From positions 1-57,488 of the forward strand of contig NZ_VUNS01000033.1 of the NCBI RefSeq assembly GCF_009695545.1: 57,488 nt of DNA, written 5' to 3'. Positions 6,101 to 11,549 of the stretch are shown here, piece by piece. The stretch is from Victivallis lenta. Lineage in GTDB: Bacteria > Verrucomicrobiota > Lentisphaeria > Victivallales > Victivallaceae. The stretch's first letter is position 1. Every line of letters begins with the position of its first letter. The position numbers were made by a program, and so were the translations under genes. Under the pieces are notes generated by a model. The model had not been told where the DNA came from. It saw only the letters and a program-made list of their open reading frames with translations, and searched no databases.

Positions 6101-7989
6101 TTGACGCCGACGCGGTCCTGACGGTCTACGGCGAGTTCCAGAACAAGGGCGAGGTCACTGTCAACGGCACGCTGAACCTTTACAGCGTCGGCGGTCTGGG
6201 CGAATCCTTCGCCGGACGCGATAAAAACAATGGAACCGTGTCTGTTTCCGGCGGAATCGTGAACTATTCCGATACGGCGTCCAGCTCCGGCTGGTTCGGC
6301 ATCGGGGCTAAAATTCACAATTCCGGCTGGGAGGATGTGACGGAAGCCGGTTCCCGGGTCGTCATCTCCGATGGCGGTTCTCTGAATCTCGCACTCCGCG
6401 AAGAAAACAGCTACGAATATGCGTTCTGCGTCGGCACCGGCGCGGAATTGAAACTTGACGGCAGCCAGGGGGCCGTTTCGGTCAACGCTGCCGGAGTGAG
6501 TCTGCTCAACAACGGTGCGATCACGATGAATGCGAACTCGATCGTCACCGTGGCCGCGTTGCAGAACAACGGCACGATCAGTATGGATTACAATTCCACG
6601 CTGGCGTTCGGGTCCTTCGAGAATGCCGGAACCATCTCCATCACTCTTGACGGATATTGCGGCGGCGAGAAGAAGCTGCTTCTGGATTACACCGGCAGCG
6701 AAACCCTGACCGGTGAATATTACAGCAAGTTGCTGGGCAGCAGCTGGAACGACGCCTGCTTCACGGTGGAGAACAATGATCTCTATCTGAATTATGATTC
6801 CGCTGTCGTGGTTTACGTCAACAGCACTTACTCGGAGGAGAACTGCGGCGGCCACACCTGGGGCGTGGACGCCTTCGCGGATCACGAGTCCGCCATGGCG
6901 AAGAACCCGGTGAGGGTGGTTTCCTGCGGCGGCGAGTTCAGCAGCACCGTCGCGTTGAACAGCAAGGAAGGGCAGATCGACGGCGGAACCTACAAGCCGC
7001 TGCTGGCCGGCCATCTGGTCAACACCGACGTCAAAAACTGGGATGACCACGAGGGAAATCTCACGGTCAGGATCAATGACGGCGCCTTCACCAGCAACGT
7101 CATCGGCGCGGACGGCGTCGCCGGCGGATCTTCGGAACGTACCGGAAATGTCTCTATGACGATTGACGGCGGAACCTTCAGCAAGCAGGTCGCCGGCGGC
7201 ATGTATCTCGCCCATACCGACAGCAGGGGCAGCGTCATTCTGACCGGAGATATCGACCTGACGATCTCCGGCGGCACGTTCGACGGGCGCATCTATGGAG
7301 GAAACTTCGGCATCAACGATACGGTTTCCGGCCGGATGTCGATGAAAGGCAACATCAACCTCACGATTGATGCGGGCAAGGCGCTGACCGTCAACGAGCA
7401 TATTTCCGCCGGTTCCAGAGGCCGCGGCACGGTGGATGGAAACGTCACCGTCACCGTCACCGGCAACGGCGACAACCTGACTTTCGACGGACTCCTTTTC
7501 GGCGGCTGCAGCGGCGACCTCTACCGTACGAACAACGGCGTCCGCACGGCCGATACAAGTGTCACGGGTGACCGGAAACTGGTGTTCGACGGCTTCAGCA
7601 ACGGGTTCGACGGCACGGTCTCCATGTTCGAAAGCGTCCGTTTTGCGGGCGGCTCTTCCGTTGCATTCACGAATGCGGCATTGAACCTCTCGGACATCTC
7701 GAACTGGGATTTTGAGTTCGGCAGCTCGTTAAGCGGCGTCAACCGTAATAATTTTGCGGGTGATACGCTCAATTTCGACCTCACCGGCTGGGCGGGCGAT
7801 CAGTGGGAAGTAATGTCCGGGAGCGCCTCGGCATTCTCCGGCTGGAACGACGCTTCCAGGGTGACTCTCGGCGGCGAATCGGCGGCATGGGATTCCGATA
7901 TCTCGGGATGGTGCAGTTCGAATTACCAGCTCACGCTGGAAGAGGACGGCGACGGCAGAAAATTGATCATTGCAGGCAAACTTGCTTAA
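157..7989 (+). CDS. Giant beta-helix repeat surface-type protein (2610 aa), no Sec signal
   Basis: The start at 157 (MSIIYTVD) is chosen because GGGAG lies 7 bases upstream; an upstream in-frame ATG at 85 lacks such a site. The first third has pectate-lyase/parallel beta-helix repeats of the N-x-I/V-x-x-N and ITGN type. The middle (about residues 1100-1400) has repeated IYGGG/IYAG turns, and the rest is Gly/Asn/Thr-rich beta-strand repeats. A short module with an aromatic residue, GK-Y, a G-x-x-AF element and a following Ala-rich helix recurs near residues 392-433, 745-783, 1564-1611 and, weaker, 2215-2256, and divides the protein into blocks. There is no hydrophobic signal peptide, LPXTG, PEP-CTERM or autotransporter barrel, and the C-terminus is ...LIIAGKLA. 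The family resembles large adhesin/autotransporter passengers, but the export route is unknown. It lies 21 bp upstream of the small-peptide cassette, so the two may be linked. Confidence 0.85.
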   Translation: MSIIYTVDPAEVASETNFHTIQEAIDAAAGVAGAGNPVEIRIAAGIYKEALTFPAGKGNITLSGARAGVDASSPERGTGETVLVGYILGADGGGALTNVTIDGMTIEAASQAQIEAGEIRNSGNVPYHGVIWSQYQSDGFTLKNNIITNAGNPAKGTIWLGAQENATITGNRVTTVLPDGEVKKEATLGIGGTSGTTTITGNVFDSAHNAVNLSGNNGGDITISGNHILNAAKCGIQVTSAPAGGSISITGNVIDNYGSAVSGKAEDEAAIAFQKRGGAGNEAVVTVTGNSVKGDYDVPLLFFSNNPADVAGSVIRDNVFQGGSSTGVYIKTSQGVQTADLAVADNFYLNAAGAQLTEVPAVQVESDSTVNTTPDPEAAVISPAVVVETGASVVIVDAAWAACEAGTLVMAGGKCYTIGVNAFGTVQAAADGVETGGTVRIQAGVYDENLMLTRSMTLLGAAGNGTVLNGGIGAAADHIVIDGLFIRPGSVNTVDANGGAAAGVSVEKHGITGLTVRNCRIDCSAAIGGNVKVYGITAGLGSRSYYSSAVTLENNRITGYTTGNAISATAQNGIYLRFVSGATVSGNTVEGFSHHLMQFQAGSDATVTNNVVRDTDRNGIQFGATASGSNLVKGNAVSDCRGASSDDAAIVLRNDGTGSMTVTGNEVTGNKTGVYISEVTDVTLLEITGNIIDGNTIDIAGNSASDITLSGNNYGADGEAVVSQQGAGKLEPGASASAETATTSIFINPAWAGQTTVIGPDGKFYTVGVNAFTKVDAAVITADTLNLDVTGPAAWLGRQTIDLSGAVGKTTVTFHDITDSTVGAYRTYLKGNNSTVVTFDNVTAPCHIFMENLSEIALVGNSQLEFTTYNNNDSLSTPTFTNVGKLTVNAGTLCYFSSTNQYGLGETVISGAGTIKTAGNMLVGGNTNQFVGTLEIAGSVTMESVESGFANASQIINNGTMYCNAAGTMVFGQKITGSGMITARKEGGTEVVITGDLSGYTGKFDALSGNTIKLNTTLNDTVNLSHSGGSAGTVELNGDGSGKTVTVNSTTDTSTALKVFMNWNDVLVQANGNAETKVYGTIFLGSNEGGASVSDLEVRLSAMNLTGGSVGHIYLGGRGDTINDGDDADKNAIVLHVDSAYSTIYGAGENGTVNGDITINVTDKACGLPSTFAPNGQIYGGGTGNTINGNVNINVNAGEASVGDIYGANASGAIDGDINITLSSGKVRQLYGLRNGSASGSSVKNIVINVEGGSVDDIRGGNSSAGKVPGEFRADCVQINLTGGEVTGKLYGGSQLNAGRIDIVVDGASAGDIYAGSKYGTVGNTSVEVKSGTVSGSIYGGGAGGSSALGYSAVDNAEIVVSGGNVTGTIYGGGSSGDATGNASIEITGGEVNDISLGGAGGAVVNSTLKISGADTVVNGNITADSLSGDAEISITGTAVNGITMNAEGNNLLINNGRVEGEVSSDGALAISGKGVFTQAITAATLTAADGLTFEVSAADLAKPLVNLTGAEASTLGNITVKLTDGSLSDFAGKQLVSGNLAGDVNLTLSDGSSTAEVVTSGDLFVNSEWSSKKEGELVELDGKFYVIGKTAFASADEAAARAAAGDSVHIRSAALQTLGTGKAMTAETVYIGKWNAVSGDPDTGNVGSLTLGTGSRLAANKVYVGTANEVLGARSSQLIVESGAQLSTGAETLNIRYDGYVKFNGWDGKTVSNVTIFNVGGFADVDAAHLTGNSLQVAADTTNPLYATAGAAKLTMTNGAELVLTGGIELGRKKNRHGILELDNAAVVSQSGIVYVGWDTTTPGEFGTGELHLKNGASLTAVNVVVNTGSTATVESGSSLRADVANNGVVNVSGAVDLSGNFTGNAINFSGPTQLSSTGGFTHEAGLKTDCLTEIGAGSYQFSSLLFDADAANQQSVEVTFASGADVRVSGVMEIDRRVNDVVLDAVKGSIRLEAGASVTVGTESTNTGKFYNKVKSSTMVDADAVLTVYGEFQNKGEVTVNGTLNLYSVGGLGESFAGRDKNNGTVSVSGGIVNYSDTASSSGWFGIGAKIHNSGWEDVTEAGSRVVISDGGSLNLALREENSYEYAFCVGTGAELKLDGSQGAVSVNAAGVSLLNNGAITMNANSIVTVAALQNNGTISMDYNSTLAFGSFENAGTISITLDGYCGGEKKLLLDYTGSETLTGEYYSKLLGSSWNDACFTVENNDLYLNYDSAVVVYVNSTYSEENCGGHTWGVDAFADHESAMAKNPVRVVSCGGEFSSTVALNSKEGQIDGGTYKPLLAGHLVNTDVKNWDDHEGNLTVRINDGAFTSNVIGADGVAGGSSERTGNVSMTIDGGTFSKQVAGGMYLAHTDSRGSVILTGDIDLTISGGTFDGRIYGGNFGINDTVSGRMSMKGNINLTIDAGKALTVNEHISAGSRGRGTVDGNVTVTVTGNGDNLTFDGLLFGGCSGDLYRTNNGVRTADTSVTGDRKLVFDGFSNGFDGTVSMFESVRFAGGSSVAFTNAALNLSDISNWDFEFGSSLSGVNRNNFAGDTLNFDLTGWAGDQWEVMSGSASAFSGWNDASRVTLGGESAAWDSDISGWCSSNYQLTLEEDGDGRKLIIAGKLA

Positions 7990-8010
7990 ATACAGGAAAG
8001 GAAACAGCAG

Positions 8011-8154
8011 ATGCAGGACGAAGAAAAGATGTGGTATGAAGCACCCGCAATCGAGGAGCTTTCCTCCCGGTTGTTCCGGGGAAGCGAAGGTGAACCGGGA
8101 GGCGAGGGGTCCGGCGGAATGCCGCCGGACGGCGACGGAGATCCGCTGGTCTAG
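8011..8154 (+). CDS. 47-aa peptide with YxxPxI leader-like motif, candidate RiPP precursor
   Basis: A short ORF (MQDEEKMWYEAPAIEEL..., ending in GDGDPLV) with an AGGAAAGGA ribosome site 8-10 bases upstream. Its TAG stop is one base before the ATG of the kinase gene, which suggests coupled translation. The N-terminal half is acidic and contains YEAPAIEEL. This fits the YxxPx(I/L) pattern by which PqqD/RRE proteins bind leader peptides, for example in lasso peptides. The C-terminal half is Gly/Pro/Asp-rich with one Ser-Gly pair and no Cys. The following RRE protein, kinase and peptidase support a role as a modified and cleaved substrate. The assignment rests on context and motif only; it could also be a small regulatory protein. 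Confidence 0.6.
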   Translation: MQDEEKMWYEAPAIEELSSRLFRGSEGEPGGEGSGGMPPDGDGDPLV

Positions 8155-8155
8155 A

Positions 8156-9019
8156 ATGTCGGAGCTGGTATTGCCGCTGCGGACCGGATCCCCGCTGATC
8201 GTGCGGGATTCGGCCGCAGGCCGGCCGGGTTGTCTGGACCGGCTGGCGCTCCTGACCGGCGGAAAGGTGCGGGATGCGGTTTCCGCCGCATCTCCCCAGT
8301 GCGAAATTACCGTGGAGGCGCCGTCCGGCCGTTCCTGCTCCGAACTGGCGGCATGGAGGCGTTATGCCCTGTTGCTGGACCGGGATAACGACGGATTCGT
8401 CATAACTCTCCGGAAAGGGGAAACGGGGTCGCCGCCGCCGATTCCGGTCGGCCTCTGGCAGCTTGGATTGCTGACCGCCTGTATTTCCGCCGTTTTGCGC
8501 GGCGCCCGGATTCTTCCGGTTCACGGCGCTTTGCTCGCCGTTTCGAAAGGCGGGCTTCTGCTGTGCGGCCAAAGCGGAATGGGCAAGAGCACGACGAGCC
8601 GGCGCTGGCAGGCGGCGGGCGGTTCCGTTCCGGCCGACGACATGGTTCTGCTGGAATGCGGCGGGGAGGAGGTGATTGCCCATCCGCTGCCGACCTGGAG
8701 CCGTTGCCGCGAATCTCTGGAGGGGGCGTCTTATCCGTTTGAACCGGCGCTTCCCGTCGCCGGAGTGTTTGCTCTGGCCCGCGGCGAGGAGCGGGAGGAG
8801 CTGAAGGAAGCTGCCTCCCGGGAGTTTTTCATGAGCATATACAGCGCGTGCTGTTGCTTCGCTTCTCCTCTGGTCAGGCTGCTGCCGCAGGAGGAACGGG
8901 AGCGGCTGCTGGCCGCCATCCGCGAAACTGCGGACCGGCTGGCGGAGGTTTCGCCGCCGACGGCTCTGTTTGCCCATCTGGACGGAAATTTGCAGAAAAC
9001 GTTAAAGGATTATTTATGA
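8156..9019 (+). CDS. HPr kinase-like (HprK C-terminal fold) protein of a peptide-modification cassette
   Basis: 287 residues from the ATG at 8156, just after the stop of the small peptide. A P-loop GQSGMGKST lies at residues 138-146, preceded by PVHGALLAV (the HG motif usual in HprK-like kinases) and followed by the Asp pair PADD near 161. The N-terminal 110 residues look like the variable domain seen in HprK-related proteins of PqqD-associated cassettes (for example SynChlorMet ScmC and paeninodin-type kinases). No HPr-binding partner is nearby, so a role in classical carbon catabolite control is unlikely. A kinase or ATP-binding maturation protein acting on the 47-aa peptide is the better inference. 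It ends in an ATGA overlap with the PqqD-like gene. Confidence 0.75.
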   Translation: MSELVLPLRTGSPLIVRDSAAGRPGCLDRLALLTGGKVRDAVSAASPQCEITVEAPSGRSCSELAAWRRYALLLDRDNDGFVITLRKGETGSPPPIPVGLWQLGLLTACISAVLRGARILPVHGALLAVSKGGLLLCGQSGMGKSTTSRRWQAAGGSVPADDMVLLECGGEEVIAHPLPTWSRCRESLEGASYPFEPALPVAGVFALARGEEREELKEAASREFFMSIYSACCCFASPLVRLLPQEERERLLAAIRETADRLAEVSPPTALFAHLDGNLQKTLKDYL

Positions 9020-9276
9020 GACTGAATCCGCTTGCAATGATGCGGGAGGAGTTTGACGGGACCGGCATTGTTTTCGACCCCGACAATAACCGGGCGATGA
9101 CGCTGAATGCTTCCGGGGTGGCTGTCTGGCGTGTGCTGAGCACCGGCGGTACGGCGGCCGATGCGGCGGTGCGGCTGCGGGAGACGTTCCGCGGCGTCAC
9201 TCCGGAACAGGCCGCCGCTGATGTCCGTAAGTTCATCGGCGCGCTGAAGGAAAAATCCCTGCTTGCCGACGATTGA
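9016..9276 (+). CDS. PqqD-like RiPP recognition element protein
   Basis: 86 residues. The core LNASGVAVWRVL, followed by a helical segment (EQAAADVRKFIGALKEKSLL), matches the PqqD/RRE winged-helix family, which holds the leader peptide of ribosomal peptides for the modifying enzyme. Length is normal for a stand-alone PqqD. It overlaps the kinase gene by 4 bases (ATGA), so the two should be made together. In known systems PqqD works with a radical SAM protein, a cyclase or a protease; here the only partners in view are the kinase and the S26 peptidase. Confidence 0.85.
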   Translation: MRLNPLAMMREEFDGTGIVFDPDNNRAMTLNASGVAVWRVLSTGGTAADAAVRLRETFRGVTPEQAAADVRKFIGALKEKSLLADD

Positions 9277-9319
9277 CCCGGATGTTGCGTGCAGCCTGCT
9301 GAAATCGGAGAAATATCTT

Positions 9320-9964
9320 ATGCGTAAAAACGGGCATAAGGGAATGGGGCCGTTCCCGGCCGGCCGTTTCATGTCGCCGTCTGCCGTATCGGCGACTCCG
9401 GTTGTTGCGCCGCATTCCGCTTTTTACTGCGGCGCAAGCATGTCGGGTGTTTTTCAGCCGGGCGACTCGCTGCGGCTGGAAGCGGTCTCGTTCGAATCGC
9501 TTCGGCCGGGCGATATTGTCGCAGTCGAGTCGGCGCCGGTTCCATATGTCCACCGGGTCATCCGGGTGAACGGAACGGAGGCCGTGACGCAGGGAGACAA
9601 CAATGCCGCCCCCGATGCGCGGCCTCTGACGCCCGGATGCCGGTTTTCTCTGGTAACCGGCGCGGTCTCTTTTCCGGGCGTTTTCAGGCCGGTTGCCGGA
9701 GGCCCGCAGGGCATGCGCCGGTTCCGCCGGAACCAATGGCGCCGGAAATTGCGTGCCGGGGCCGGGAGAGTATGGCATCGTCTGGAACCCCGGGCATTCT
9801 GGCGGATTCCGGTCCGCAGCCGTACCGTATTCCGGAATGAGATGGTTTTCGATTTTCACGGAATTCCGGTTGCCCGGGTTTCCGCGAATGGATCGGTTCA
9901 TTATTTCGGCAGCCTGAAACGGCTCCTCTTCAGATTGCCGGGAGCGGACCGTTCGGCTCCATAG
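9320..9964 (+). CDS. S24/S26 signal-peptidase-like protein, ER/archaeal (Ser-His-Asp) type
   Basis: Start at 9320 (MRKNGHKG) has a GGAG site 9 bases upstream; an in-frame start at 9263 would overlap the PqqD gene. Catalytic Ser40 lies in GASMSGVFQPGD, followed by GDIVAVES, YVHRVI with His78 in the place of the bacterial Lys, and QGDNN with Asp93. This is the SEC11-like signal peptidase pattern. No strong membrane anchor precedes the Ser, unlike housekeeping LepB, so it is probably a dedicated peptidase. The last 100 residues are Arg-rich and of unknown role. Position at the end of the peptide cassette suggests it trims the 47-aa peptide or a similar product. Confidence 0.75.
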   Translation: MRKNGHKGMGPFPAGRFMSPSAVSATPVVAPHSAFYCGASMSGVFQPGDSLRLEAVSFESLRPGDIVAVESAPVPYVHRVIRVNGTEAVTQGDNNAAPDARPLTPGCRFSLVTGAVSFPGVFRPVAGGPQGMRRFRRNQWRRKLRAGAGRVWHRLEPRAFWRIPVRSRTVFRNEMVFDFHGIPVARVSANGSVHYFGSLKRLLFRLPGADRSAP

Positions 9965-11402: not shown

Positions 11403-11549
11403 ATGTCGAATGAGAAAAAAGAGAAGATCGAACAGATCAACCAGGACACCCCCGTGCTTCCGCAGAACATCAACGAGGCGAAGGATACTCCGGTTGATTT
11501 GCCGGTCTCCCTTCCGAAAAATCCGAACGGCGAAACTCTTTCCGAGTGA
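11403..11549 (+). CDS. 48-aa acidic peptide of unknown function in a monocistronic unit
   Basis: The ORF runs from ATG at 11403 to TGA at 11547-11549, with GGAGGAAT 7-10 bases upstream. It begins MSNEKKEKIEQINQ and carries two related Pro-rich segments, DTPVLPQNIN and DTPVDLPVSLPKNPN. It has no signal peptide or membrane segment and no Cys or Tyr. A near-consensus promoter upstream and a strong terminator downstream make it a complete single-gene unit. No family was recognised. Confidence 0.65.
   Translation: MSNEKKEKIEQINQDTPVLPQNINEAKDTPVDLPVSLPKNPNGETLSE

Follow-up and report, generated by a model that had tools for sequence, protein, structure and literature searches.

A 47-residue peptide is encoded in Victivallis lenta between the gene for a giant β-helix protein and three genes for a kinase, a PqqD-family protein and a peptidase. 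Most RRE-guided peptide maturation that is known yields cofactors or free natural products, and the locus raises the question of whether the peptide is such a product or belongs with the giant protein whose gene it follows. Comparison of sequences and predicted structures tilts the balance towards a RiPP-like system that matures peptides and is linked to giant β-solenoid proteins.

Layout of the locus and identity of the enzymes

The window, by which we mean the whole stretch of DNA that was analysed (57,488 nucleotides), is the entire contig C33 of a 5.5 Mb genome. The gene order on the plus strand, read 5' to 3', is giant, peptide, kinase, PqqD and S26 (Table 1). A 21-bp gap separates the stop codon of the giant gene from the ATG of the peptide and contains the purine-rich element AGGAAAGGA. 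The peptide gene ends with TAG at 8152-8154, a single base (A8155) follows, and the kinase starts with ATG at 8156; an ATGA overlap joins the kinase and PqqD genes. The preliminary description had reported the 47-residue frame with its YEAPAIEEL segment, the one-base gap and the overlap, and direct reading of the sequence reproduced all three to the base. An Rfam search of the window gave no match, and no promoter or terminator signals in it exceeded those of shuffled sequences. Farther downstream in the window (11403-11549, +), a 48-residue ORF has a strong ribosome-binding site (aggagg) and no YxP motif; its single relative, from a congeneric genome, is 59% identical over 39 residues.

Table 1. 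Positions of the features of the locus in the window.
Feature	Position	Strand	Evidence
Giant right-handed β-helix protein, 2634 aa	85..7989	+	Pfam Beta_helix 45 bits, NosD 35 bits
Conserved C-terminal domain of the giant (alignment A1)	7540..7986	+	Homologue alignment; AlphaFold2 model
Purine-rich, ribosome-binding-like AGGAAAGGA upstream of the peptide ATG	7994..8002	+	Sequence read directly
Precursor-like peptide MQDEEKMWYEAPAIEELSSRLFRGSEGEPGGEGSGGMPPDGDGDPLV, 47 aa	8011..8154	+	Conserved relatives; purifying selection
RRE-type leader motif YEAPAI, Tyr9-Ile14	8035..8052	+	Alignment of 14 peptides
Predicted leader cut after Gly24, LFRG/SEG	8080..8085	+	Inference from motif in relatives
HprK-like kinase, 287 aa	8156..9019	+	Profile matches; conserved catalytic motifs
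PqqD-family RRE protein, 86 aa	9016..9276	+	Pfam, NCBIfam and PDB profile matches
S26/SEC11-like peptidase, 214 aa	9320..9964	+	NCBIfam, PDB profile and fold matches; catalytic residues

The kinase is related to HPr kinase: its profile matches HprK in the PDB (1.7e-6), aligning to 1jb1. It scores 26.9 bits against Hpr_kinase_C (cut-off 33.3), 54.4 bits against its best NCBIfam match, ScmC (cut-off 125), and 24 bits against the curated HprK model TIGR00679, whose cut-off of 240 is not reached. H123, the GxSGxGKST loop, D161-D162 and PTWS179-182 are kept, and the HPr kinase motifs HG, Walker A (GxSGxGKS/T) and DD show little or no variation among 16 aligned kinases. The enzyme probably phosphorylates the peptide. 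A paralogous kinase on contig C3 of the same genome scores 104.1 bits against ScmC. The PqqD protein exceeds the Pfam PqqD cut-off (55.5 versus 23.4 bits); its best NCBIfam match is ScmD, with 52.4 bits under a cut-off of 100, and its profile matches the lasso B1 protein TbiB1 in the PDB (8.5e-12).

The peptidase gene starts 43 bases downstream of the PqqD stop codon. Both this spacing and the Ser40, His78 and Asp93 of the preliminary description were confirmed; the three residues, in SEC11-like spacing, are conserved in 41, 40 and 41 of 41 aligned sequences, that is, in at least 40 of 41 at each position. The protein scores 39.5 bits against TIGR02228, under the curated cut-off of 51.85. It shares the Ser/His/Asp motifs with S26 peptidases such as SEC11, archaeal signal peptidase I and the Ni-SOD maturation protease; SEC11C is its best PDB relative by sequence profile (1e-9), and LexA and SEC11A are among the best by fold (model pLDDT 84), matching with a probability of 1.0 but weak E-values. 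Unlike these enzymes, it lacks the N-terminal membrane helix that anchors signal peptidase I, the first 30 residues of the model being disordered, and it carries an additional long Arg-rich helix (residues 128-158) and C-terminal β-strands. Because the membrane helix is missing, cleavage by this peptidase would be cytosolic. In one Methanoregula locus (L204, 8960-10654), an ScmC kinase and an S26 peptidase form a single fused protein, which supports a joint role of the two enzymes.

Conservation of the cassette and its relation to known systems

We surveyed 137 genomes of the window's order (Victivallales-type Lentisphaeria). Runs of kinase, PqqD and S26 genes recur in at least eight of its genera, in many genomes and often with 4-bp overlaps, and the related contigs belong to gut and rumen Lentisphaeria. 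The S26 gene is present in 40 of the 137 genomes and the PqqD gene in 52, and the cassette S26, which again sets it apart from other S26 peptidases, always occurs in a PqqD genome within the order (40/40). Relatives of the cassette are extended by NTP_transf_5, ABC exporter, ScmE-type radical SAM or HlyB/HlyD genes. Within the window's genus, three genomes (G000, G128 and G134) have the A1 domain, PqqD, S26 and NTP_transf_5, and the remaining six have none of these. The peptide, the kinase, PqqD and S26 are a genuine conserved cassette. This is the unit that the preliminary description had proposed, with the conservation of the short ORF beside the three genes in related genomes as its test, and there we found both the recurring runs and the ORF, with an invariant Tyr and Pro.

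The window's genome contains five PqqD loci. On contig C24 (L006, 7671-8643), a second PqqD-S26 copy lies behind a transposase-like ORF, in a stretch where we found no kinase. In several relatives (L093, L095, L096 and L102), S26 and NTP_transf_5 are fused into one protein, which parallels the B2-N fusions of lasso clusters.

The preliminary description could not assign the locus to a named class, a statement that we revise. ScmC and ScmD are the top NCBIfam matches of the kinase and PqqD, albeit under their cut-offs, and the same S26 stands beside ScmC in full-type SynChlorMet loci of Omnitrophota, Methanoregula and a deltaproteobacterium; in one such locus (L200), ScmC, ScmD, ScmE and ScmF all exceed their cut-offs. 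The S26 genes that stand with kinase, PqqD and radical SAM genes in Omnitrophota, Methanoregula and Deltaproteobacteria also rule out a cassette restricted to Lentisphaeria. Both systems have a short YxxPx(I/L/V) precursor, the SCM-type precursors reading KYxxPxV...AKG or ARG. Because SCM loci share S26 and the precursor pattern, we regard the Lentisphaeria cassettes as divergent SynChlorMet relatives. They differ in that the window's kinase and PqqD score below the SCM cut-offs, the window's cassette has no radical SAM gene, ScmE and ScmF included, and the Lentisphaeria peptides are paired with a giant β-helix gene. The machinery in the window is best read as a trimmed, divergent SynChlorMet relative without radical SAM enzymes, linked to giants. 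Searches of a paper library turned up no account of SynChlorMet, of giants paired with PqqD or of such a system in Lentisphaeria.

A second relationship leads to phosphorylated and phosphoglycosylated lasso peptides (paeninodin, pseudomycoidin and Bsf), whose kinase/N/protease logic has been described (PMC8498205; PMC10368454). The RRE protein (B1/PqqD), the YxxPxL leader, the HprK-like kinase K, the nucleotidyltransferase-type N, the ABC exporter and protease-N fusions are shared; in lasso clusters N and the B2 protease form fusions (PMC8498205), and the related kinase BsfK transfers phosphate to Ser3 of a precursor that has a YxxPxL leader (PMC10368454). In contrast, the system described here has neither a lasso cyclase nor a transglutaminase-like B2, and S26 takes the protease role. 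The absence of a transglutaminase-type protease and, at the locus, of an Asn synthetase was stated correctly in the preliminary description: the genome has no Transglut_core3 (PF13471), and its Asn synthetase (PF00733) matches, one at C1:372987 and three weak ones, are all at a distance from the five PqqD loci. Its statement that radical SAM enzymes and an exporter are missing held for the cassette and the neighbourhood, respectively, but not for the genome, where C4 and C3 carry paralogous cassettes with ScmE-like genes (under the cut-off), C15 carries a radical SAM gene, and C26 an S26 paralogue together with an ABC exporter and NTP_transf_5.

An ordinary lasso-peptide cluster with its cyclase elsewhere in the genome is highly improbable and was rejected: the nearest PDB relatives of PqqD are lasso B1 proteins, and the YxxPx leader and the core Gly spacing are about as in lasso precursors (PMC10368454), but Transglut_core3 is missing from the genome, Asn synthetases are absent from the PqqD loci and none was seen in the relatives' cassettes, and the core has no fixed ring Asp or Glu.

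The precursor peptide and its predicted processing

The leader Tyr and Pro are invariant in the 14 aligned peptides from cassette loci, and the short ORFs of relatives carry YExPx(I/L/V/M). An HMM built from the 14 peptides matches 26 of the 137 genomes. In all nine close peptide pairs dN is smaller than dS, indicating purifying selection. Conservation, selection and controls exclude a chance short ORF, and we also rejected the peptide as a read-through tail of the giant, with which it shares a frame in the window and not in L069. Overall, the peptide is very likely an RRE-guided precursor.

An [AVIL]xG motif lies 14-19 residues past the leader Tyr in 35 of 46 peptides, compared with 15.7 ± 3.0 (maximum 26) when the 18 residues following were shuffled 2000 times. 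Because this motif agrees with the -3/-1 rule for signal peptidases, we infer that S26 cuts after the Gly, and removal of the leader by S26 is likely. The window's peptide has Phe at -3 instead of [AVIL] and does not strictly follow the rule; the Gly of the motif is missing in three relatives' peptides.

The tails of the peptides are mostly acidic, and no core region lacks a Ser or Thr. The window's core is acidic, Gly-rich and free of Cys, which also distinguishes it from SynChlorMet. Cores with Cys, as delimited by eye, occur in 6 of 7 genomes with an ScmE-like radical SAM gene versus 1 of 19 without (p=2e-4); if Cys residues before the presumed cut are counted, the values are 6/7 versus 4/19 (p=0.005). 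In two loci of radical-SAM genomes (L126 and L128), tandem peptides have the core GxSCYIDC...CP and are possible thioether peptides.

Pairing with giant proteins and competing explanations

The giant ends in ...GKLA, and its true start is possibly a downstream ATG, that of MSIIYTVDP; hydropathy (maximum 1.06) shows no hydrophobic signal at its N-terminus. Its last 149 residues align with giants adjoining other cassettes, and the extreme C-terminus of the giants is conserved, mostly as ...KLA, TLA or LA. The A1 domain has no match in Pfam. Its AlphaFold2 model is all-β (pLDDT 93), and a fold search of the PDB gave nothing at E≤0.001, the best being 2iou (pertactin-containing, E 0.28). The domain matches 37 genomes, 27 of them strongly and ten more weakly. 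PqqD is present in 27/27 of the strong-A1 genomes versus 25/110 of the others, and S26 in 26/27 versus 14/110.

Of 45 A1 giants, 24 have a YxPx peptide ORF that begins no more than 100 bp beyond their 3' end, whereas a control set of 669 other coding-like ORFs gave 12 such cases (p=1e-23), at least six of them giants whose C-terminus is of another kind. A recognisable 3' peptide is missing for 23 of 57 A1 domains, and the counts come from related, non-independent genomes in which neighbouring genes may be copied jointly. About half of the giant-peptide pairs have no adjoining cassette gene. The window's genome has six pairs (on C33, C4, C3, C1, C15 and C6). The preliminary description treated the system as one of four genes; the cassette is conserved, but the upstream giant was left out. 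Because peptides follow such giants even where there is no cassette, we count the giant as part of the system, and the peptide probably functions with it. An orphan pair on C1 (L120, 3827-4231) is followed by a seemingly frameshifted PqqD-like ORF, and in L075 (G049:C35) a giant ORF read as 5746 aa is followed by a peptide, a second giant and then kinase-PqqD-S26.

These observations suggest a working model. PqqD would hold the YEAPAI leader, as its family membership implies, the kinase would phosphorylate a Ser near the start of the acidic, Gly-rich core, and the soluble S26 would cut near Gly24 at the signal-peptidase-like motif. Where radical SAM or NTP_transf_5 genes are present, Cys cores may be modified further or the phosphate decorated. 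The mature peptide would be exported, here probably through the S26-ABC-NTP_transf_5 operon on C26, and would serve as a dedicated partner of the upstream giant, for instance in HlyB/HlyD secretion, surface anchoring or capping. The full version, in which each giant has its own phosphorylated, leader-cleaved peptide needed for secretion, anchoring or assembly, with modifications added by radical SAM enzymes and NTP_transf_5, is tentative.

Alternatively, the peptide could be a free small secreted signal or bacteriocin from a reduced SynChlorMet- or lasso-type pathway, the giant gene often standing nearby without a functional tie, as it might in an island of co-regulated surface or secretion genes. 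The same types of kinase, PqqD and exporter serve free lasso peptides, with B2 replacing S26 (PMC8498205, PMC10368454), the same enzyme types are present in SynChlorMet loci, beside which no giant gene was seen in other phyla, and the cores differ greatly from genome to genome. We consider this explanation unlikely, however, since peptides follow giants where the cassette is lacking, the A1 domain is strong only in PqqD genomes, and G107 and G116 each have several near-identical peptides after giants, unlike diversifying antibiotics. These peptides lie near contig ends and, where the contig suffices, 15-16 bp downstream of giant ORFs.

The giant itself could also be the substrate, with the kinase, NTP_transf_5 or S26 acting on its C-terminal tail and the peptide making use of the PqqD site as a regulator, pseudo-substrate or chaperone. 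The conserved C-terminus of the giants and an A1 domain that tracks the enzymes agree with this arrangement. However, the peptides themselves have the leader, the signal-peptidase-like motif and the Ser-bearing core, and Cys in their cores tracks radical SAM genes, which makes it quite improbable.

The pairing of leader-bearing peptides with the 3' side of giant genes suggests a hitherto undescribed kind of pair, made up of a giant protein and a processed peptide. If this is true, RiPP chemistry would help to build a giant surface protein instead of a free natural product. The presumed substrates stand beside dispersed giant genes and are apparently served in trans, which suggests that the modified peptides have a role in structure or secretion, and SynChlorMet-like cassettes would gain a substrate pairing that can be tested, along with predictions of their protease and of its cut rule. 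The carriers are common, poorly studied gut and rumen bacteria.

Giants in related genomes are probably secreted. Like giant adhesins that are secreted by type I systems, the window's giant is of great length and has no evident Sec signal and a conserved C-terminus, and HlyB/HlyD genes sometimes adjoin PqqD/S26; it differs in being a β-helix protein without RTX or Ig-like repeats, in its paired leader-bearing peptide gene and in a secretion route that is predicted. Of 39 cases, 10 have an HlyB-like gene less than 6 kb from PqqD. The link to secretion is weak because HlyB-like genes are common with or without the system (88 of the 137 genomes of the order, irrespective of the cassette); genome-wide co-occurrence is therefore uninformative, and co-localisation alone is useful. 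Export of the giant by type I secretion is thus conceivable and somewhat doubtful. The window's genome has an HlyB-like gene on C21, where (L007, 9625-13820) a PqqD gene is directly followed by an HlyB-type ABC gene and an HlyD-type gene and preceded by what by eye is an anti-sigma/STAS-like pair; in L083, a relative of this locus, the HlyB-type ABC protein has a C39-like domain.
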